Positions 22,552 through 34,678 of a stretch of 64,000 nucleotides of DNA are shown here, piece after piece. The notes below the pieces were generated by a model that did not search any database, was not told the origin of the DNA, and saw only the letters and a program-made list of their open reading frames with translations. Numbering within the stretch: position 1 is the first letter of the stretch; every line of letters starts with the position of its first letter. A program made the position numbers and the translations under genes. The stretch is from Gemmatimonadota bacterium (GTDB lineage: Bacteria; Gemmatimonadota; Gemmatimonadetes; Gemmatimonadales; Gemmatimonadaceae): NCBI GenBank assembly GCA_028287235.1, contig JAQBQB010000010.1, positions 248,001-312,000 on the forward strand, read 5' to 3'.

Positions 22552-22659
22552 GAGCGGCGAAAGTGACAACCACACCGCAGCGCTCGGCAAGGGGCTACGG
22601 CCAGCCGCGGCCGGGTCGTCCCGCTTTGATTGCGGCCATGGCTCAAACCTTCATATTCC

Positions 22660-22671
22660 AGACAATGTCTA
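22660..22671. promoter_or_regulatory. Probable PadR operator, padR-ADOP operon 1
   Basis: The perfect palindrome AGACAATGTCT (22660-22670) lies 8 bases before the padR start and shares the core AATGTCTA with the palindrome at the second padR gene in this window. PadR regulators commonly autoregulate through palindromes in their own promoters. A possible -10 (CATATT, 22652-22657) overlaps its left flank. Confidence 0.5.
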
Positions 22672-22677
22672 ACAAAC

Positions 22678-23004
22678 ATGTCGCCCATGCTCGGTGAGCT
22701 CGAACAGGTGGTCCTCCTCGCGGTGCTGCGCGTGGGCAAGGATGCGTACGGCGTGCCCGTGCACGACGAGATCCAGACGCGCGCGGGCCGCGACCTCACG
22801 CTCGGCACGATCTACAAGACGCTCACGCGCCTGGAGGACAAGGGGCTGGTCGTCTCGCACATCGGCGAGCCGACGGCTGCTCGCGGCGGGCGGCGCACGC
22901 GCTGCTACGTCGTGACCGCGGCCGGAAAGCGCTCGCTCGCCGCGACGTTCAAGACGCTCCGTCACATGGCGGCGGGGCTCGACGTGGGGCTGGAGCCGAC
23001 GTGA
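22678..23004 (+). CDS. PadR family transcriptional regulator
   Basis: 108-residue PadR-type winged-helix protein: GELEQVVLLAVLRVGKDAYGVPVHDEI (helices 1-2), LTLGTIYKTLTRLEDKGLV (recognition helix) and the GGRRTRCYVVTAAGKRSL wing. The short C-terminus is the usual dimerisation helix of the small PadR subgroup. It overlaps the next gene by GTGA, so the permease is translationally coupled. An ATG 9 bases downstream (22687) is an alternative start. Effector unknown. Confidence 0.9.
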   Translation: MSPMLGELEQVVLLAVLRVGKDAYGVPVHDEIQTRAGRDLTLGTIYKTLTRLEDKGLVVSHIGEPTAARGGRRTRCYVVTAAGKRSLAATFKTLRHMAAGLDVGLEPT

Positions 23005-25607
23005 CGCAGGACGCCACGCGCCGAGTGACGCACGTCTGCATCCGCCTGCTCGAGCGGTCGCTGCGCCCCGACGTCGCGGTGCACGTCGCCGGCGATCTCG
23101 CGGAGCAACAGGAGCGCGGCGCGCTCTGGACGCTTCGCGAAACGTTGTTCGCGCTCGTTCACCTGCATGCCCGCCCACACACAGGAGACGGTCTCATGTC
23201 GACCTTTCTCGCCGACCTGCGCATCGCAGCGCGTCTGCTGCGGCGCTCGCCGGCGTTCGCAATCGTCGCGGTGCTCACGCTCGGCCTGGCCATCGGCGCG
23301 ACCACGGCAATCTTCAGCGTGATCGAGCCCGTGCTCCTGCGTCCTCTGCCCTACCCCGATCCGGAGCGGCTGACGTTCGTCTGGGAGCGCGACCGCGACG
23401 GCGGACGGAGCAACATCGGCTACGCGACGTTCCGCGACGTCGTCGATCAGTCGCGCACGATCGAGCGTGCCGCGGCGATCGGCTCGTGGCAGCCGACCAT
23501 CTCCGGAACCGGCGACCCTGAGCGCGTGAACGGCGACCGTGTCTCGTGGACGTTCTTCCGCACGCTCGGCGTGCACCCGGCACTCGGGCGCGACTTCACC
23601 GCGAGCGAGGACGTGCCGGGAAGCAACCAGGTGGTGATCCTCAGCTACGGCCTATGGCAGCGAAAGTACGGCGGTGATCCCGCCATCGTCGGCCGAACGG
23701 TCTCCGTCAACGACGGGCCGATGACCGTGGTGGGCGTGATGCCGGCGTCGTTCGACAACGTCGTGTCGCCCGGGACGCAGATCTGGCGCGCGCTCGGGTA
23801 CGCGAATCAATCGTTCGCCTGCCGCACCTGTCGTCATTTACGAATGCTGGCGCGCATCAAGCCGGGCGTCGGCATGGCGTCGGCCGCGACGGAGCTCGAC
23901 CAGATCCACCGGCGCATCGAGAAGCAGTTTCCCGACCAATACGCGTCGGTCGGCGCGTCGGTGGTGAGCGTGCAGGACCAGGCAACGCTTCCGTTCCGGC
24001 CCGCGCTGCTCGCACTCAGCGGCGCGGTGGTGCTCGTGCTGTTGATCGCGGTGGCGAACGTCGTGAACTTGCAGCTCGCCCGCGCCGTGCGGCGTGAAGA
24101 AGAGTTCGCGATTCGCACCGCGCTCGGCGCGGCGCGGTCGCGGCTCCTGCGGCAGCTCATCACCGAAGGACTCCTGCTGGCGACACTCGGCGGTGCGGCT
24201 GGTCTTCTCGTGGCGCGCATCTCAATTCCGATACTCGTCGGACGCCTCCCGCAGGGAATGCCCCGACTCGCGGCCATCCAACTCGACGTCCGGGCGCTCC
24301 TCGCAGTCGCGGCGTTGGTGTTGGTGCTCGCCATCCTGATGGGACTCGCGCCGGCTCGGTCGCGCCGCGGAGACCTCGGCGCCACGCTGCGCTCGGGACG
24401 GCGGCTCTCGAGCACCGGCAACCACCTGACACGCGCCGCGCTCGTCGTGGGCGAAGTAGCGCTCGCCGTGATGCTCCTCGTGAGCGCCGGCCTCGTGGCG
24501 CGCAGTCTCGTGCGGCTGCTCGCCGTCGACGCGGGCTTCGACGCCTCGCACCTGCTCACGCTCGAGGTCAACTCGATCGGAACCAAGTATCCCACCAACG
24601 CGAGCGTCGTCGCGTATCACGACCGCGTCCGGAGCGCGGTGGCTGCGCTCCCCGGCGTCACCAGCGTGGCGGTGGCCAATCAGCTTCCGCTCGGCGGCAA
24701 CGCGGACAGCTACGGCGTGATCGACGCCGACAACATCCCGGCGAATCCAGAGCTGGCGCCGAACGGCGACCGCTACGTGGTGTCGCCCGGATATTTCTCG
24801 ACGATGCGCGTTCCGATACTGCGCGGCCGGACGTTCACGGCTGCGGAAGCAGCGGACACGGTGAACAACGTTGCGCTCGTGAGTGCGGCACTCGCCGACC
24901 GCATGTGGCCGGGACAGAACCCCCTCGGCAAGCGCATCGTGCTCGGCGGGCCCAAGGGTGCGCCGCGAACGGTGATCGGCGTCGCCGGCAACGTGCGGCA
25001 TGGCGGGCTCGATGCGGCGACGACCCTGCAATGGTACACACCGGAAGCACAGTGGCTCTTCGCCGACAATCAGGAAGTGCTCGTGGTGCGCACGAGCGGC
25101 GATCCCGCCGCGCTGGCGAACGCCGTGCGCCGTGCGATTGCGGCGATCGATCCGGCGCAGCCGATCGTGAAGATCGCGACGATGGATCAGGTCATCGCCA
25201 TGTCGACGACACAACGCCATCTCGCGCTGGTGCTGTTCGGCGCGTTCGCCGTGGCGGCGCTGCTGCTCGCGGTCGCGGGCATCTATGGTGTGCTCGCCGG
25301 GAGCGTGGCGGAGCGGACGCGAGAGATTGGCGTTCGCAGCGCCTTGGGCGCGACGCCGAGCGACATCGTGGCGTTGGTGGTCGGCCAGGGCGGAAGGCTC
25401 GCGGTGGCGGGGATCGTGTTCGGTCTCGCCGGGTCGTTCGCGCTCACCCGCTTTCTCCGCACGCTGCTCTTCGGCATCGGACCGAACGATCCGGTGACAC
25501 TCGGCGGCGTCGTGGCGCTGTTGTCGCTCGTGACGCTGGCGGCGTGTCTCATTCCCGCGATGCGCGCGGCGCGGGTGGATCCGAGTTGGGCGCTGCGAAG
25601 CGAGTGA
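23001..25607 (+). CDS. ADOP-type ABC permease (FtsX/MacB family), copy 1
   Basis: 868 residues: an N-terminal soluble prefix of about 65 residues, then two tandem MacB periplasmic-core plus FtsX units. The first helix is AFAIVAVLTLGLAIGATTAIF (about 85-105). The first FtsX block is near 340-450 and ends with the amphipathic GLAPARSRRGDLGATLRSGRR. The second ends REIGVRSALGATPSDIV and RFLRTLLFGI, typical FtsX loops. ADOP permeases lack an adjacent ATPase, and their substrates are unknown. The gene is coupled to padR through GTGA and followed by a strong bidirectional terminator. Confidence 0.92.
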   Translation: MTQDATRRVTHVCIRLLERSLRPDVAVHVAGDLAEQQERGALWTLRETLFALVHLHARPHTGDGLMSTFLADLRIAARLLRRSPAFAIVAVLTLGLAIGATTAIFSVIEPVLLRPLPYPDPERLTFVWERDRDGGRSNIGYATFRDVVDQSRTIERAAAIGSWQPTISGTGDPERVNGDRVSWTFFRTLGVHPALGRDFTASEDVPGSNQVVILSYGLWQRKYGGDPAIVGRTVSVNDGPMTVVGVMPASFDNVVSPGTQIWRALGYANQSFACRTCRHLRMLARIKPGVGMASAATELDQIHRRIEKQFPDQYASVGASVVSVQDQATLPFRPALLALSGAVVLVLLIAVANVVNLQLARAVRREEEFAIRTALGAARSRLLRQLITEGLLLATLGGAAGLLVARISIPILVGRLPQGMPRLAAIQLDVRALLAVAALVLVLAILMGLAPARSRRGDLGATLRSGRRLSSTGNHLTRAALVVGEVALAVMLLVSAGLVARSLVRLLAVDAGFDASHLLTLEVNSIGTKYPTNASVVAYHDRVRSAVAALPGVTSVAVANQLPLGGNADSYGVIDADNIPANPELAPNGDRYVVSPGYFSTMRVPILRGRTFTAAEAADTVNNVALVSAALADRMWPGQNPLGKRIVLGGPKGAPRTVIGVAGNVRHGGLDAATTLQWYTPEAQWLFADNQEVLVVRTSGDPAALANAVRRAIAAIDPAQPIVKIATMDQVIAMSTTQRHLALVLFGAFAVAALLLAVAGIYGVLAGSVAERTREIGVRSALGATPSDIVALVVGQGGRLAVAGIVFGLAGSFALTRFLRTLLFGIGPNDPVTLGGVVALLSLVTLAACLIPAMRAARVDPSWALRSE

Positions 25608-25658: not shown

Positions 25659-26138
25659 TTACGACTTTTTGAATGCCAACTTGACTGCCATGCTCTGTCC
25701 GGCGATGCTGGCGCTCCGCTGCATGTTCAACGTCTTGCCGTCCGCGTCGAGCGAATAGCGATCGACCTGCTCGAGCGGCTGGCCCTGAATGTCGGCCTTG
25801 GTCGTGATGACGAGCGTCGGGCCGTCCCAAGCGCTCGTCGACGTAAGCGCGAGCGCCATACCCTGCGCGTCCACGGTGTTCTTCGTCGCCGTGCCGTCGA
25901 GGCTCACGGTCTGGTTGGCCTTCTGGTCGCCCATCGCGGTGCTGGCCGCGCTCTCGAGCTTGATCGTCTTCGCGTCCTGCACCACGACGATCGTCATCGC
26001 GGTCGGAGCCATGGCGCCCTGTGCGCTCGCGGGGTCCAGCACCCACTTGCCGGTGAAGTCGGGATGGGTGCCCTGCGCCGCCAACGGCGAGGCAACAGCG
26101 GCGAGTGCGAAAGCGAGTGAAACGAAGCGGCGCATCAT
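25659..26138 (-). CDS. Secreted protein of unknown function
   Basis: 159 residues with a signal peptide (about 1-22, ending PLAAQG). The mature part begins HPDFTGKWVLDPASA, a strand-turn pattern of small secreted beta-sandwich proteins, and continues as alternating strands (VQDAKTIKLES; TLVITTKADI; RYSLDADGKTLNM). No catalytic residues are recognised. GGAG lies 5 bases before the first of two adjacent ATGs. It lies 22 bases downstream of the FecR-type gene and is probably co-transcribed with it. Confidence 0.65.
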   Translation of the reverse strand: MMRRFVSLAFALAAVASPLAAQGTHPDFTGKWVLDPASAQGAMAPTAMTIVVVQDAKTIKLESAASTAMGDQKANQTVSLDGTATKNTVDAQGMALALTSTSAWDGPTLVITTKADIQGQPLEQVDRYSLDADGKTLNMQRSASIAGQSMAVKLAFKKS

Positions 26139-26160: not shown

Positions 26161-27444
26161 TTATTTTTTCGCCATCGCATCCCGGAAGACTTTGCTGTCG
26201 CCTTCATAGGTGAACTTCACGTTGCCGCTCTTCTCCACCTGGGCGATTGCCGCCCGAGACGAGTCGAGTGAGACGTTGAAGCCAGCCTCGCGGTCGAGCA
26301 GTTTGAGATCCGGAACCTTGATGTCGAGGTTGAACCAACGCGCCAACTGCGCGACGACCGCTCGCAGTTGTTTGTGCTCCACCGCGATACGTCCCTCGGG
26401 CCAGCCGAACGCCTGAGCCCGTTCATCGTCCGTCGGCGCTCGCATTGTCGTACGGTCGATGAACAACATTTGATTCGCCGTAACGGTACTGGACTGCTTG
26501 CCCGACTTCACCGTCACGCTCCCGTCGCGCACCTGCACCAGCACCGAACTGTCGCCCGAATACGCATACACGACGAAGTTGGTACCCGTAGCGATGAGAT
26601 GGGTTCGATTGGCGACGACGCGGAAGGGGATCGGCTGCCCTTTGGCCACGTCGAATTCCGCCGTGCCGTCGACCTTGATCGCGCGGATCTTCGTCGGGAA
26701 TTCGTCTGGAATGAACACCTTGGTATCGGGACCGATGCGCATCTTCGTCCCGTCGCGCAGCGTCAGCGTGCCGATCTGGCCCGGGCTCGACGCGATGGGC
26801 TGGATGGAGGCGTTGCTGGTGGCGGACACCATGGCGTCGTCTTCGCCAAGCCGGCTGGTGTAGATCACGGCGACTACCGAGATAGCGAGCGCGGCAACAC
26901 CGATCAGGACGGGCACGACCCACGACTGTCCCTTGCCAACGCTCTTCATGTGTGCGGCGGCCTCGTGCCGGCCGACTTCGGCCGCGGCGAGGTGCGCCTG
27001 ATCGTTTTCGCTGCCGCCCTCGGTATTGATGGCGTGTGTGATCTGTTCCCACGAACGTTCGGCGTTCGCCTCGTCCGACGCCGCGGCGTGTGAACCGGTG
27101 TTGCCGGTATCGCGCCCGCCGTGCGTTCCGAACCGATGCGCCGCGGCGCGCCGGCTCAGCGCGCGCGAGGCACCATGGTGAACGTCACTCGCGAGAAATG
27201 CCCTGACCTGCTCGGCGTCGTGCAGCGTGGGGCGGTGCGCCCAGGCGCTGATGAAGGCCGATTCGACGACGCGTGGTGCTTGGGACGCGGCGTCGCCGAG
27301 CTGGCTCTTCGCACTCAGTACGAGCGCGCTGTACTCGGCGTCGAATATTCGCCGCAGCGCCGATTCGTCGGCGAGGAAAGGGGTGAGAGAATTGACCGAT
27401 CCGGACAGGGCACCGCCGTCGCGTGGTGGAACACTCGTCGACAT
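26161..27444 (-). CDS. FecR-type transmembrane protein with sigma-region-2-like N-terminus
   Basis: 427 residues. Residues about 28-106 read like ECF sigma region 2 (RRIFDAEYSALVLSAKSQLG, then an ESAFISAWAHRP helix and SRALSRRAAAHR), but the acidic core motif is degenerate and region 4 is absent. A charged linker, one membrane helix (about 175-196) and a periplasmic FecR domain (about 220-330, with TLRDGTKMRIGPDTKV and FDVAKGQPIPFRV) follow. The C-terminal ~70 residues match the DUF4974/STN-like module seen in Bacteroidota FecR proteins. FecR proteins normally sense TonB receptors and control an ECF sigma factor; none adjoins here. GGAGG precedes the ATG. Confidence 0.85.
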   Translation of the reverse strand: MSTSVPPRDGGALSGSVNSLTPFLADESALRRIFDAEYSALVLSAKSQLGDAASQAPRVVESAFISAWAHRPTLHDAEQVRAFLASDVHHGASRALSRRAAAHRFGTHGGRDTGNTGSHAAASDEANAERSWEQITHAINTEGGSENDQAHLAAAEVGRHEAAAHMKSVGKGQSWVVPVLIGVAALAISVVAVIYTSRLGEDDAMVSATSNASIQPIASSPGQIGTLTLRDGTKMRIGPDTKVFIPDEFPTKIRAIKVDGTAEFDVAKGQPIPFRVVANRTHLIATGTNFVVYAYSGDSSVLVQVRDGSVTVKSGKQSSTVTANQMLFIDRTTMRAPTDDERAQAFGWPEGRIAVEHKQLRAVVAQLARWFNLDIKVPDLKLLDREAGFNVSLDSSRAAIAQVEKSGNVKFTYEGDSKVFRDAMAKK

Positions 27445-27560
27445 GCAGCCTCCAGGGCTCTCAGTTGTGCCTATATCATGGCACGGGAGCCGGGAGGTGC
27501 AAGGGGCGGACTACGCCTTTCTATCCGTGCGTCCGGCGCACTCGACGAAGGCCGCGACGC

Positions 27561-29750: not shown

Positions 29751-32351
29751 TCAGTCCCGCAACGCCACCGCCGGATTCACCCGCGCCGCGCGCCACGCGG
29801 GAATGAGCGCCGCCGCGATCGCCACGCCGAGCAGCGCCGCCGCGACAGCGAGGGGAATTCGCGGGTCGCTCGCCGTCACGCCGTAGAGAATGGAGCGGAG
29901 CAGCTGCGCGAAGGCGAACGCACCGGCACCCCCGAGCAGGATGCCCATGCAGGTGAGGCGAATCGCGCCGCCGGCCACCTGCGAGAGAATGTCGCGGCCG
30001 CGCGCGCCGAGGGCGATGCGCACACCGATCTCGCGCGTGCGCTGCGCCACGCCGTACGCGATCACGCCATAGAGACCCACGACGGCGATGACCATCGTGA
30101 TCGCCGCGAACACGCCCACGAGTCCGGCCATCAGCTTGAACGCCGAGACATGGCGCGCCTCGAGATCTCGCATCGTCATGACGCCGCCGATGGCCGCGGC
30201 CGGATTGGCGAGCCCGATCGTACGCCGAACGACGTCGCGCATGGCGTCCGGATCGCCGTCGGCCCAGACCTCGAGGTCCATGGTACGCGACATCGCCTGC
30301 GGCAGCGAGCGATACAGCTCGTCGAACAGCGGCTCGTCGAAGCCGCCGTGCCGCACGTCAGTGACGACGCCCACGATGGTCCAGGGCAGCGAGTCGATGA
30401 GCACAGTGCGTCCCACCGCTTCGCGCCCCGGCCAGAAATGTTCGGCGGTGTGATGGCTGATCACGACGACGCGAGGAGCGCTTGCGTCGTCGCGCGCTTC
30501 GATGCCGCGTCCGGCGACGACATGAATGCCCATCGCGCGAAAGTAGCCCGGCGTAACGCGCTGGTCGGTGGCGGACAACCGCCGGTCGCCCGGAAGCGGC
30601 GTGCGGCCGGGAACGTCGAAGGCCGTGCCCCACCGAGTGTTGCTGAGCGGTGTCGTGGTGGTGAGCCCTGCGCCCCGAATGCCGGGCTGCGCCATGAGGC
30701 GTTCGTCGAGCCGCACCATGAAATCGCGCGCGGCGCTGTCCGGAACCGTGCGTGGAACGGACAGATGCATCGACAACACGTGGTCGAGTCGTACGCCCGG
30801 GTCGCCGTTCATCATGTTGTGCACACTGCGCGCGAGCAGCGCCGCACCGGTCAACAGCACCAGCGCGACGCTCACCTCGGTGACGACGAGGCACGCGCGG
30901 AGGCGCGTGCCGCTCACGCCGGCGCTCGCGCGTCCTCCGTCGGAGAGGACGCTGGACAGGTTCACTCGCGTGGCACGAAGCGTAGGGAGTAGCGCGAAGA
31001 CGAGCGTCGTGGCCACGGAGACGACGAGCGTGAACAGGAGCGCCCGGCCGTCGACGTGTACGAACGCCCACCCGGGAACGAACGCGCCGAGCGACGGGGG
31101 AACGACGTCGCGCATCACCGAAACGCCCCAGACGGCGAGCACGGCACCCAGCGCCCCGCCCGCGAGCGATACGAGGAACGCCTCGACGAGGAGATGCCGC
31201 ACGAGCCGCGTGCGACGACCGCCGAGCGCGGCGCGCAACGCCAGCTCGCGCCCGCGCGCGGCGGTGCGAGCCAGCGCGAGATTGGCGACGCTCACGCACG
31301 CGGCGAGCAGCACGAGCGCCACGGCGACCGCGACGATCTCGACGAGCAGCGCGACGTCCTCGGTGTGAAACGCCGCGACGGGGCGCGCCACGAGCCGCCA
31401 ACCTTCTTCGGTCTTCGGTGAAGCCTGCGCGAGACTGTGACTGACGCGATCGGCGTCGCGCCGCGCGTCGGCGATCGTGGCGCCGTCGGCCAACCGGCCG
31501 AAGACGTAGAGATAGCGCGAGCCGTAGTTCTGCGCGTCGGAGGGCCGCGTCACCAGCGGCGCGTAGACGTCGGCGCGGGTGGGAAAGACGACGTCTTTCG
31601 CCAGCACGCCCACGACGCGCTGTGCCTTGCCGCTGAGGGTGATCGCTGAGTCGAGCACGCCGCGGCTGCCGCCAAAGCGGGATTGCCAGAAATCATATGA
31701 GAGAACCGTCACGGGCTCCGCGCTCGCCTCGTCTTCGCCCGTCGCGAAGCCGCGGCCCAGCGCAAACGGCGCGGAGACCGCCGAGAAGAGGTTGGCCGAG
31801 ACGAGAAACCCTTCGACGAGCTCGCTGCCTTCGGCGCCGCGAAGTGCGGTGCGCCAGCTGGACGTCGCCGCCACGGCGGCCATCGACGGCGCGCCGACGC
31901 GCAGCGCGAGGAACGCGGCGGGGGACACGTCCTCGCAGGCGGGACAATCGGCCGAGCGCTGTCCGATGGAGACGAGACGCTCTTGCGGTAGCAGCGGAAA
32001 TGGGCGCCGCAATACGGGATCGGTGAGACTGAACACGGCGGTCGTCGCACCAATGCCGAGCGCGAGGGTGATCGTGGCGGCGATCGCGTAGACGGGACTG
32101 CGCCGCAGCCCGCGCAGGCCGTGGCGAACATCCTGGCCGAGCTGCTCGAGCCAGCTCCATCGCCACACCCCGCGGACTGATTCCAGGACCAGCGTGCGAT
32201 TTCCGAAGCGGCGACGCGCTTCGAGCGCCGGGCTGTCCGTGCCGCCGCGCGCCGCGATCTCTTCCGCCTCGAGGTCCAGATGATCGCGAAGCTCACGCTC
32301 GATCTCGGCGTCGCGCGAGCGACGCGCACCGCCGAACAGTCGCCGCCACAT
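29751..32351 (-). CDS. ADOP-type ABC permease (FtsX/MacB family), copy 2
   Basis: 866 residues. An N-terminal cytoplasmic prefix (about 1-60, RRSRDAEIERELRDHLDLEAEEIAARG) is the ADOP permease prefix domain 1 type and differs from copy 1. Helix one is YAIAATITLALGIGATTAVF, then two MacB-core/FtsX units with closing REIGVRIALGARGRDILSQV. Two Cys pairs (CPAC) lie in the first periplasmic core. No adjacent ATPase is present. The start is 3 bases after the padR stop, so the two genes form one operon. Confidence 0.92.
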   Translation of the reverse strand: MWRRLFGGARRSRDAEIERELRDHLDLEAEEIAARGGTDSPALEARRRFGNRTLVLESVRGVWRWSWLEQLGQDVRHGLRGLRRSPVYAIAATITLALGIGATTAVFSLTDPVLRRPFPLLPQERLVSIGQRSADCPACEDVSPAAFLALRVGAPSMAAVAATSSWRTALRGAEGSELVEGFLVSANLFSAVSAPFALGRGFATGEDEASAEPVTVLSYDFWQSRFGGSRGVLDSAITLSGKAQRVVGVLAKDVVFPTRADVYAPLVTRPSDAQNYGSRYLYVFGRLADGATIADARRDADRVSHSLAQASPKTEEGWRLVARPVAAFHTEDVALLVEIVAVAVALVLLAACVSVANLALARTAARGRELALRAALGGRRTRLVRHLLVEAFLVSLAGGALGAVLAVWGVSVMRDVVPPSLGAFVPGWAFVHVDGRALLFTLVVSVATTLVFALLPTLRATRVNLSSVLSDGGRASAGVSGTRLRACLVVTEVSVALVLLTGAALLARSVHNMMNGDPGVRLDHVLSMHLSVPRTVPDSAARDFMVRLDERLMAQPGIRGAGLTTTTPLSNTRWGTAFDVPGRTPLPGDRRLSATDQRVTPGYFRAMGIHVVAGRGIEARDDASAPRVVVISHHTAEHFWPGREAVGRTVLIDSLPWTIVGVVTDVRHGGFDEPLFDELYRSLPQAMSRTMDLEVWADGDPDAMRDVVRRTIGLANPAAAIGGVMTMRDLEARHVSAFKLMAGLVGVFAAITMVIAVVGLYGVIAYGVAQRTREIGVRIALGARGRDILSQVAGGAIRLTCMGILLGGAGAFAFAQLLRSILYGVTASDPRIPLAVAAALLGVAIAAALIPAWRAARVNPAVALRD

Positions 32352-32354
32352 GGC

Positions 32355-32708
32355 TCATCCCTCCGTTGCGGGTTGCATCACGCGCCCAATCGCGCGCACG
32401 AGCTCGTCCCACTTCGACTGCTGCGCCAACAGCTGCTTTCGTCCCGCCGCCGTGAGCCGGTAGAACTTGAACTCGCGGTTGCCGTCGGGCGGCTTGTCCC
32501 ATTTCGCGGCGACGGCGCCTTTCTTCTCGAGCCGGTGCAGCGCCGGGTAGAGCGACCCGTGCTCCACGGTGAGCACGTCGCGCGTGGTCTGTTGGATGTG
32601 CTTTGCGATCCCGTGCCCATGCGCGGGACCGAAAAGCAGCGTCTTGAGGATCAGCATGTCGAGCGTGCCCTGGAGCAGCTCGACACGGTCGTCGGATGAT
32701 TTCGCCAT
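32355..32708 (-). CDS. PadR family transcriptional regulator
   Basis: 117 residues: LLQGTLDMLILKTLLFGPAHGHGIAKHI and GSLYPALHRLEKKGAVAAKW are the winged-helix segments of the ADOP-associated PadR subgroup, and KFYRLTAAGRKQLL is the wing. It is the first gene of the operon with ADOP permease 2. A perfect palindrome lies 6-20 bases before its start, suggesting autoregulation. Confidence 0.93.
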   Translation of the reverse strand: MAKSSDDRVELLQGTLDMLILKTLLFGPAHGHGIAKHIQQTTRDVLTVEHGSLYPALHRLEKKGAVAAKWDKPPDGNREFKFYRLTAAGRKQLLAQQSKWDELVRAIGRVMQPATEG

Positions 32709-32713
32709 GTGAT

Positions 32714-32728
32714 GGTAGAATGTCTACC
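32714..32728. promoter_or_regulatory. Probable PadR operator, padR-ADOP operon 2
   Basis: GGTAGA and TCTACC are perfect arms around ATG. The AATGTCTA core matches that in front of the other padR gene. The palindrome would overlap the ribosome-binding region of padR and lies 40 bases or more from the divergent histidine kinase gene, so it might affect both. Confidence 0.55.
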
Positions 32729-32768
32729 CTGGTGGTCTCTACGATTGTACGGATCCTGCGTTTCGTCA

Positions 32769-33941
32769 ATGGCCGGACTTGCTTTGGCTGCGCACCGCGG
32801 GCATCCTGTCGGCGGTATGCCACCAACTCCCGCCCCAACTCCCGCCGCCGCACGTGCCCCCTCGCGACACGGCGCGCTCACGCCCACAACGCTCTTCGCC
32901 ATTTGGAGCGTACCGACGCTGCTCTCCACCTTCGAGACAGTGATGTTCTCGCGGATGGGCGGCCGGCCCATTCCCGCCTGGCGCGCCTTCGCCGCCGAAG
33001 CGCCGCAGTGGTACGGCTGGGCGCTGCTCACGCCGGTGATCATCCGTCTCGGCGAGCGCTTTCCGCTTCAGCGTCCGCTGCGTGCCAGGAACGTGACCGT
33101 GCACGCGCTCGCGAGCCTCGGCGCGAGCGCGCTGGTCGCATTCGGCGACGCGCTCGTCAACTTGTGGGTGCGGCCGGGGCGGTTGAGTCTTTGGCAATCG
33201 GCCGGGAGCTGGTTCATCTCCGGCCTGCCGGCGATGACCGTCGCCTACTTCGCCATTCTTGGACTCAGCTACGCAGTGAACGGCGCGGCGCGGCTTCGCG
33301 AGCGCGAACGGAAGGAAGCGGAGCTGGAGGCGCAGCTACGCGACGCGCAGCTCGCCGCGCTGCGCATGCAGCTCCAGCCGCACTTCCTGTTCAACAGCCT
33401 CAACGCCGTCATGGCGCTCGTGCGCGATCAGGACACGGCGCGCGCCGTGCGCGCGCTCGCGCTGCTCAGCGACGTGCTCCGTGCCACGATCAACGCCGGC
33501 GACGCGCACGAGACGACTCTCGCGCAGGAGCTCGACTTCGTCCAACGCTACCTCGAGATCGAGCACGTGCGCTTCGGCGATCGCCTGCGCGTGACGATCG
33601 ACGTACCTAACCATCTGGCCGGCGCACGCGTGCCCACGTTCATCCTCCAGCCGTTCGTCGAGAATTCGCTCAAGCACGGCGTGCTGCGCGAGCGCGCCGG
33701 CAACGAGATCAGCATTCACGCCAGCGTCGTGGGGTCGGCGCTGCGTCTCGCGGTGCGCGACGACGGACGAGGACTCCCCGCGGCGGGCATGCCGCCCACC
33801 GGCGTGGGCATCGAGAACGCACGGGCGCGGCTGGCGCAGATGTACGGCGACGGCGCGGCGCTGTCGGTGCGGAACGCGACCGATGGCCCGGGCGTGTCCG
33901 TCGAGATTACCCTGCCGCTGGCGTCGTGCCCCGCGTCGTGA
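32769..33941 (+). CDS. LytS/YehU-type sensor histidine kinase
   Basis: 390 residues: a short Pro/Ala-rich cytoplasmic start, four membrane helices (about 41-170) and no separate sensor domain, then a His_kinase domain with the acceptor His205 in QLQPHFLFNSLN. The ATPase part has the N-box PFVENSLKHGV and DDGRG(L)P. This family phosphorylates LytTR regulators such as the one encoded next. ATG 32817 is an alternative start; no Shine-Dalgarno decides between them. It is divergent from the padR gene. Confidence 0.9.
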   Translation: MAGLALAAHRGHPVGGMPPTPAPTPAAARAPSRHGALTPTTLFAIWSVPTLLSTFETVMFSRMGGRPIPAWRAFAAEAPQWYGWALLTPVIIRLGERFPLQRPLRARNVTVHALASLGASALVAFGDALVNLWVRPGRLSLWQSAGSWFISGLPAMTVAYFAILGLSYAVNGAARLRERERKEAELEAQLRDAQLAALRMQLQPHFLFNSLNAVMALVRDQDTARAVRALALLSDVLRATINAGDAHETTLAQELDFVQRYLEIEHVRFGDRLRVTIDVPNHLAGARVPTFILQPFVENSLKHGVLRERAGNEISIHASVVGSALRLAVRDDGRGLPAAGMPPTGVGIENARARLAQMYGDGAALSVRNATDGPGVSVEITLPLASCPAS

Positions 33942-33946
33942 CTCGC

Positions 33947-34678
33947 ATGATCCGTGCGCTGATCGCCGACGATGAGGCGCTCTCGCGCCGGCTCGTACAT
34001 CAACTGCTCGAGCGGCACGCCGACGTCGCCGTCGTCGCCGAGTGCACCGACGGCGAAGAGGCGCGCGAGGCGATCGCCGCGCTCGAGCCCGACGTCGTCT
34101 TCCTCGACGTGCGCATGCCGGTCGAATCAGGCCTCGACGTGGCGCGCGGACGCGAGCCGCGCAGCGGACCCCTCGTGGTGTTCGTCACCGCCTACGACAA
34201 GTTCGCGCTCCCCGCGTTCGAGACCGACGCGGTGGACTATCTCACCAAGCCGCTCACCGAGGAGCGCTTCGACGCCGCGCTCGACCGGGTGCGCGACCGG
34301 CTGCGGCTGCGGCGCATCGCCGACACGCTCGAGGAGGAAGAGCCGCACGACCTCTCGCATCTCGTCGCCCGCGTCGGCGTGCGCGACGTGATCATTCCAC
34401 TCGAGACGATCGACTACATCGAGGCCGACGACGTCTACGCCGCCGTCATCGCGCGCGGGCGGCGGCTTCTCGTGCGCACGCCGCTCGACGCTCTCGAGCG
34501 CACGCTCGATCCGGCGGTGTTCGCGCGCATCCACCGTTCGTACATCGTGCGGCTCGCCCGGGTGACCGAGGTGCGCCGCGAGCGCATGGAGGTCGTGTTG
34601 GCGGGCGGCGTCACGCTGCCCGTGAGCCGGCGCCGCCGTGGCGCGTTGGACCGGCTGCTCAAGCCGCTGGCGACATAG
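33947..34678 (+). CDS. LytTR family response regulator
   Basis: 243 residues: receiver domain (about 1-115, acidic ADDE at 7-10, phospho-acceptor Asp54 in FLDVRMP, Lys in YLTKPL) and a C-terminal LytTR DNA-binding domain (about 140-240, IDYIEADDVYAAVIARGRR, FARIHRSYIVRLARV). It forms a two-component pair with the upstream kinase. ATG 33947 gives the normal MIRALIADDE start and lies 6 bases past the kinase stop; a GTG at 33938 overlapping that stop is possible. Confidence 0.93.
   Translation: MIRALIADDEALSRRLVHQLLERHADVAVVAECTDGEEAREAIAALEPDVVFLDVRMPVESGLDVARGREPRSGPLVVFVTAYDKFALPAFETDAVDYLTKPLTEERFDAALDRVRDRLRLRRIADTLEEEEPHDLSHLVARVGVRDVIIPLETIDYIEADDVYAAVIARGRRLLVRTPLDALERTLDPAVFARIHRSYIVRLARVTEVRRERMEVVLAGGVTLPVSRRRRGALDRLLKPLAT

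Follow-up and report, generated by a model that had tools for sequence, protein, structure and literature searches.

To our knowledge, sigma domains have hardly been described other than as subunits of RNA polymerase or as soluble mimics such as PhyR. The acidic motif of sigma region 2.2 contacts beta', and the soluble PhyR acts on NepR as an anti-anti-sigma factor. In class I anti-sigma domains, sigma4 is held by helices 1 to 3 and sigma2 by helix 4 (PMC7406223). IutY, a cell-surface signalling protein of Pseudomonas putida, joins a cytoplasmic ECF sigma part, one transmembrane (TM) helix, and a periplasmic FecR-like part in one polypeptide; its sigma2 and sigma4 are complete (PMC9249621), and it is released by RseP and active. 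ECF43 sigmas (EcfP/EcfK) lack the acidic motif and are intrinsically inactive until phosphorylated (PMC8999054), which takes place on a Thr that replaces the motif.

The window analysed here, a 64,000-nt stretch of DNA from a Gemmatimonadota bacterium, encodes a protein that resembles these systems in part (Table 1). Like IutY, it carries a sigma part, one TM helix, and a FecR part in a single polypeptide, but it has no sigma4 and lacks the core-binding acidic residues. With the FecI/FecR and PupI/PupR pairs, it shares the FecR/PupR signalling-domain fold and a sigma2 part that groups with FecR-paired sigmas, whereas it has no separate sigma partner, no anti-sigma-domain helices 1 to 3, and no adjacent TonB-dependent transducer. 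The acidic motif of region 2.2 is missing as in ECF43, but Pro-Lys/Arg stands at the phosphorylation site, region 4 is absent, and no Ser/Thr kinase was found among the ten neighbouring genes scanned. With Pro-Lys/Arg at that site, phosphorylation cannot rescue activity. As in PhyR, the sigma-like domain is not that of a working sigma; PhyR is a soluble response regulator, whereas the window protein is membrane-bound and has region 2 alone, attached to a FecR sensor.

Table 1. Features of the gene and its protein (window positions)
Feature	Positions	Strand	Basis
Whole gene, 427 aa: sigma2-like domain, linker, TM helix, periplasmic FecR	26161..27444	-	ORF and domain profiles
Sigma-region-2-derived domain, residues 24-106	27127..27375	-	TIGR02985, own-genome ECF HMM, PDB profile, AF2/VIA, tree
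Rewritten core-binding segment, residues 57-63, PRVVESA	27256..27276	-	Residue comparison with sigmas (EDLVQEx)
Helix 128-142 (D/E..W..I...LH), probable remnant of helix 4 of the FecR anti-sigma domain	27019..27063	-	Conservation, shared motif, pLDDT
Juxtamembrane RHxAAxH motif, residues 158-166, family-specific	26947..26973	-	H160 and H165 conservation
Single TM helix, residues ~175-197	26854..26922	-	Hydrophobic run in alignment; AF2 helix 176-209
Periplasmic FecR domain, residues 217-310	26515..26796	-	PF04773 and Foldseek
FecR_C domain, residues 356-417	26194..26379	-	PF16344, weak
Upstream block TTGCAC-16-CATGAT, possible own promoter	27475..27502	-	Conserved in 4 congeneric species

Sigma region 2 homology and protein layout

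The gene starts with ATG, 5 nt downstream of a GGAGG sequence. A sigma-70 consensus scan upstream of it found nothing and did not pick up the conserved TTGCAC-16-CATGAT block. The sequence-only reading had called the product FecR-like, and its periplasmic part does belong to the FecR family: PF04773 matched at E 1.4e-11 (45.1 bits against a cut-off of 24), and Foldseek of the periplasmic part returned 4m0h (6e-18) and the PupR signalling domain 6ovk (1e-12). The PF16344 (FecR_C) match in the window protein (E 5.9e-4) lies below the cut-off; the model is matched by 27 of 33 relatives. On the cytoplasmic side, residues 107 to 172 form a short linker and two helices ahead of the one TM helix (alignment, AF2). 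Sigma region 4, which the same reading had reported missing, was found neither by Pfam and NCBIfam nor in the alignment and the AF2 model, and only about 70 residues lie between region 2 and the TM helix. The anti-sigma helices 1 to 3 of FecR are also absent, and the sigma2-derived domain sits in their place; the canonical FecRs of the phylum have a different N-terminus at this position.

Residues 24 to 106 are homologous to ECF sigma region 2. This resemblance had been proposed for residues 28 to 106, with a Sigma70_r2 profile search and structure prediction as checks. The Pfam Sigma70_r2 model did not report the window protein and gave weak matches in only 5 of 33 relatives. As a sole test it is too weak for this family, and NCBIfam, our own HMMs, and a PDB profile were used instead. 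The NCBIfam ECF model TIGR02985 matched residues 30 to 106 with an E value of 2.8e-5 for the full-length protein and 4.1e-6 for the N-terminal 110 aa, and it matched 44 of 55 relatives (best, 2.2e-8). In a search restricted to 33 relatives, a region 2 HMM built from the ECF sigmas of the same genome recognized 30 of them above threshold. When a profile of the cytoplasmic module was run against all PDB sequences, two chains were found at E<=1, both of them sigma factors (RpoE of 9n9q, 3.3e-5; SigL, 0.003). The proposed profile match was thus obtained with the NCBIfam ECF model and not with the Pfam model.

Structure prediction agreed. AF2 modelled residues 27 to 106 with a pLDDT of 91 to 98, and in a VIA re-alignment sigma region 2 filled the first 26 rows (Z 9.5 to 5.0), except that row 26 was the sigma-like domain of PhyR (3t0y, Z 5.0), after which Z fell to 3.7; since VIA scores below 13 are only supportive for helical bundles, the claim of sigma homology is carried by the sequence evidence. 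Foldseek of the N-terminal module returned nothing at E<=0.001, the best match (E 0.034) being a sigma. A maximum-likelihood tree recovers the family as monophyletic (support 100), consistent with its single origin, and joins it to the FecR-paired (FecI-type) sigmas in one clade (99) that excludes 22 other ECFs. Within its own genome, the three sigmas adjoining canonical fecR genes take the top three places in the ranking by the module HMM. Because the PDB matches are sigma-only and the tree places the family with FecR-paired sigmas, chance helical similarity is rejected. The kinship with sigma/FecR fusions suggested earlier is upheld.

The simplest history would be that sigma and fecR genes lying side by side were joined by an in-frame deletion. 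The ancestor would then be a fusion of a FecI-type sigma gene with the fecR gene beside it, and sigma region 4 would have been lost along with the anti-sigma helices 1 to 3 that bind it. Such a deletion would have removed sigma4 with its binder and left sigma2 with its own, helix 4. What remained would be region 2 of the sigma, followed by what is probably helix 4 of the anti-sigma domain and then by the TM helix and periplasmic part of FecR.

Core-binding motif and juxtamembrane segments

The sequence-only reading had described the core-binding motif as worn. The motif is indeed altered, but the alteration follows a consistent pattern. Residue 58 is Asp or Glu in all 36 compared sigmas and Lys or Arg in 52 of 55 family members, and Q61 is found in 35 of the 36 sigmas compared to 3 of the 55 family members. 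The net charge of residues 54 to 63 is +0.33 in the family, compared to -3.4 and -3.7 in sigmas, and N90 of sigmas is lost, so that both core-binding and melting residues are gone. W68 and R71, which mark FecR-paired sigmas, are kept in 53 and 55 of the 55 members, respectively, and residue 98, at the basic helix end, is Arg or Lys in all 55. Because these substitutions are family-wide and the domain is under purifying selection (see below), the motif is systematically rewritten, and the domain apparently re-purposed, rather than worn. Judging from these residues, the region 2 domain probably does not bind RNA polymerase.

Two further segments lie between this domain and the membrane. In the helix at residues 128 to 142 (pLDDT of about 94), W132 is conserved in 52 and H140 in 46 of 55 members. 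A D..W..[LIV] motif that matches this helix occurs ahead of the TM helix in 15 of 23 canonical FecRs of the phylum, compared to a mean of 1.7 and a maximum of 7 in 2,000 shuffles, although few single canonical FecRs exceed the shuffles when taken one by one. On the basis of this short motif, the helix is probably a remnant of anti-sigma helix 4. In the RHxAAxH motif, H160 is present in 49 and H165 in 54 of the 55 members, and a His-rich stretch persists in orthologues without the sigma domain. None of the canonical FecRs examined showed the motif; it may be a metal or ligand site.

Distribution, selection, and genomic context

The protein is common to many Gemmatimonadota, and the half of a sigma factor that it retains lies on the inner side of the membrane. 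Relatives at E<=1e-30 were found in 83 of 148 genomes of the same GTDB family, representing 24 of 35 genera; relatives were also taken from three records named Gemmatimonadetes, Gemmatimonadota, or bacterium. When the full-length profile was run across the phylum, full-length matches were confined to the protein's own family, and matches outside it covered just the FecR part and little ahead of it. A search with the cytoplasmic module, which covered Gemmatimonadota genomes, found it in 61 of 298 genomes from 20 genera, all in the same GTDB family and in one copy each, except for one genome with a second copy at a contig end. Given its single copies in 20 genera of this family only, the module is a defined, single-copy family trait.

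The sigma2 part is under purifying selection, with a dN/dS of 0.06 to 0.32 over 14 pairs, which rules out decay or a pseudogene. Such strong constraint on the fold is not in itself proof of signalling. In one genus, three same-locus orthologues (L120, L121, and L122; compare L123) have no sigma2 domain and keep the TM helix and FecR part. An assembly error was rejected as the cause, as no sigma2 ORF was present in any frame of the three loci. Since these orthologues have lost all of the sigma2 part, it is dispensable in some lineages.

A scan of the neighbouring genes found no adjoining sigma gene, as had been stated earlier, and hence no cognate ECF sigma next to the window gene. No neighbouring gene is conserved among the relatives, and neighbourhoods differ between genera. 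In 8 of 13 near-complete genomes, the family member is the sole FecR protein and no FecI-type sigma scores over the TIGR02985 cut-off; among the 13, such sigmas occur only in three genomes that also have high-scoring canonical FecRs. The STN domain of TonB transducers was not detected in three genomes carrying the gene. Given these absences, the family protein is independent of the FecI/FecR pair and apparently does not need a classical TonB transducer. The same 8 genomes rule out a FecR decoy as the general role. The earlier proposal that the protein titrates another anti-sigma factor may hold, but its target cannot in general be a canonical FecR. Among the papers searched, none mentions Gemmatimonas together with FecR.

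Directly downstream of the gene, positions 25659 to 26138 (- strand) encode a small, putatively secreted protein without a Pfam match, which is conserved only within the genus (window, L075, and L076). The gene is flanked by pairs of a PadR regulator and a large permease on opposite strands, at 22630 to 25607 (+) and 29751 to 32708 (-). PadR was confirmed on both sides and MacB/FtsX for the second pair, while the permease of the first was recognized by eye. Adjoining the second PadR/MacB pair, at 32709 to 34678 (+), a histidine kinase gene (His_kinase/HATPase) overlaps a LytTR response regulator gene.

Possible modes of action

The reading we favor, to which we give an even chance, is that an old sigma-FecR fusion now serves as an RNA polymerase-incompetent, membrane-tethered protein-binding module that couples the periplasmic FecR sensor to a cytoplasmic partner. 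The polymerase-gripping charges are rewritten across the family, which suggests that an old gene fusion was put to a new use no longer dependent on RNA polymerase. The region 2 domain would have been rebuilt to neither bind polymerase nor melt promoters, and it would probably be docked in cis on the protein's own helix 4. A periplasmic signal would then reach the cytoplasmic partner through protein-protein contact and not through transcription initiation. The leading candidate for that partner is an ECF/anti-sigma component other than FecI/FecR. More tentatively, and with the odds against it, the family may represent a new class of one-protein transmembrane signalling, in which a domesticated region 2 acts as a polymerase-free sigma mimic that switches other ECF/anti-sigma pairs, or another partner, via the periplasmic FecR sensor. 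A selected, RNA polymerase-incompetent region 2 fixed family-wide on a membrane sensor would illustrate how the genes for a sigma and its anti-sigma can merge into one signalling protein that does not act through transcription.

The main rival, which we regard as unlikely, is a membrane-tethered anti-anti-sigma factor whose sigma2 mimic binds the helix-4-like part of the anti-sigmas of other ECFs and frees their sigmas under periplasmic control. The fold is that of sigma2 and, more weakly, of the PhyR sigma-like domain (3t0y), anti-sigma helix 4 does bind sigma2 (PMC7406223), the tested genomes keep 10 to 33 ECF-like sigmas, and ASDI-linked ECFs are over-abundant in Gemmatimonadetes (PMC7406223). 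However, the surface recognized by helix 4 overlaps the charge-reversed residues, and any such binding would face competition from the helix-4-like segment of the protein itself. Where a genome has no other FecR, as in 8 of 13, the target cannot be a FecR-type anti-sigma.

The basic helix end at R98 and a topology shared with IutY (PMC5411451, PMC9249621) would suit intramembrane proteolysis that frees the cytoplasmic part to act on DNA or transcription. We consider this quite improbable, as region 4, the core-binding motif, and N90 are all gone, whereas IutY itself has complete sigma2 and sigma4 (PMC9249621). The sequence-only reading had preferred titration by the tethered region 2, with core RNA polymerase as one target. 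Although the region 2 fold is retained, the residues for beta' contact are Lys or Arg in nearly all members, the local charge is reversed, and ECF43 EcfP loses activity without this motif (PMC8999054); of the explanations considered, this one is the least probable. It is also improbable, to much the same degree as proteolytic release, that the cytoplasmic part is a relic, a mere folded anchor for a function residing in the periplasmic FecR part. The orthologues without sigma2 are what a relic would predict, but elsewhere the sigma2 part matches or exceeds the FecR part in its approximate degree of conservation, carries specific family-wide substitutions, and is kept across 20 genera.
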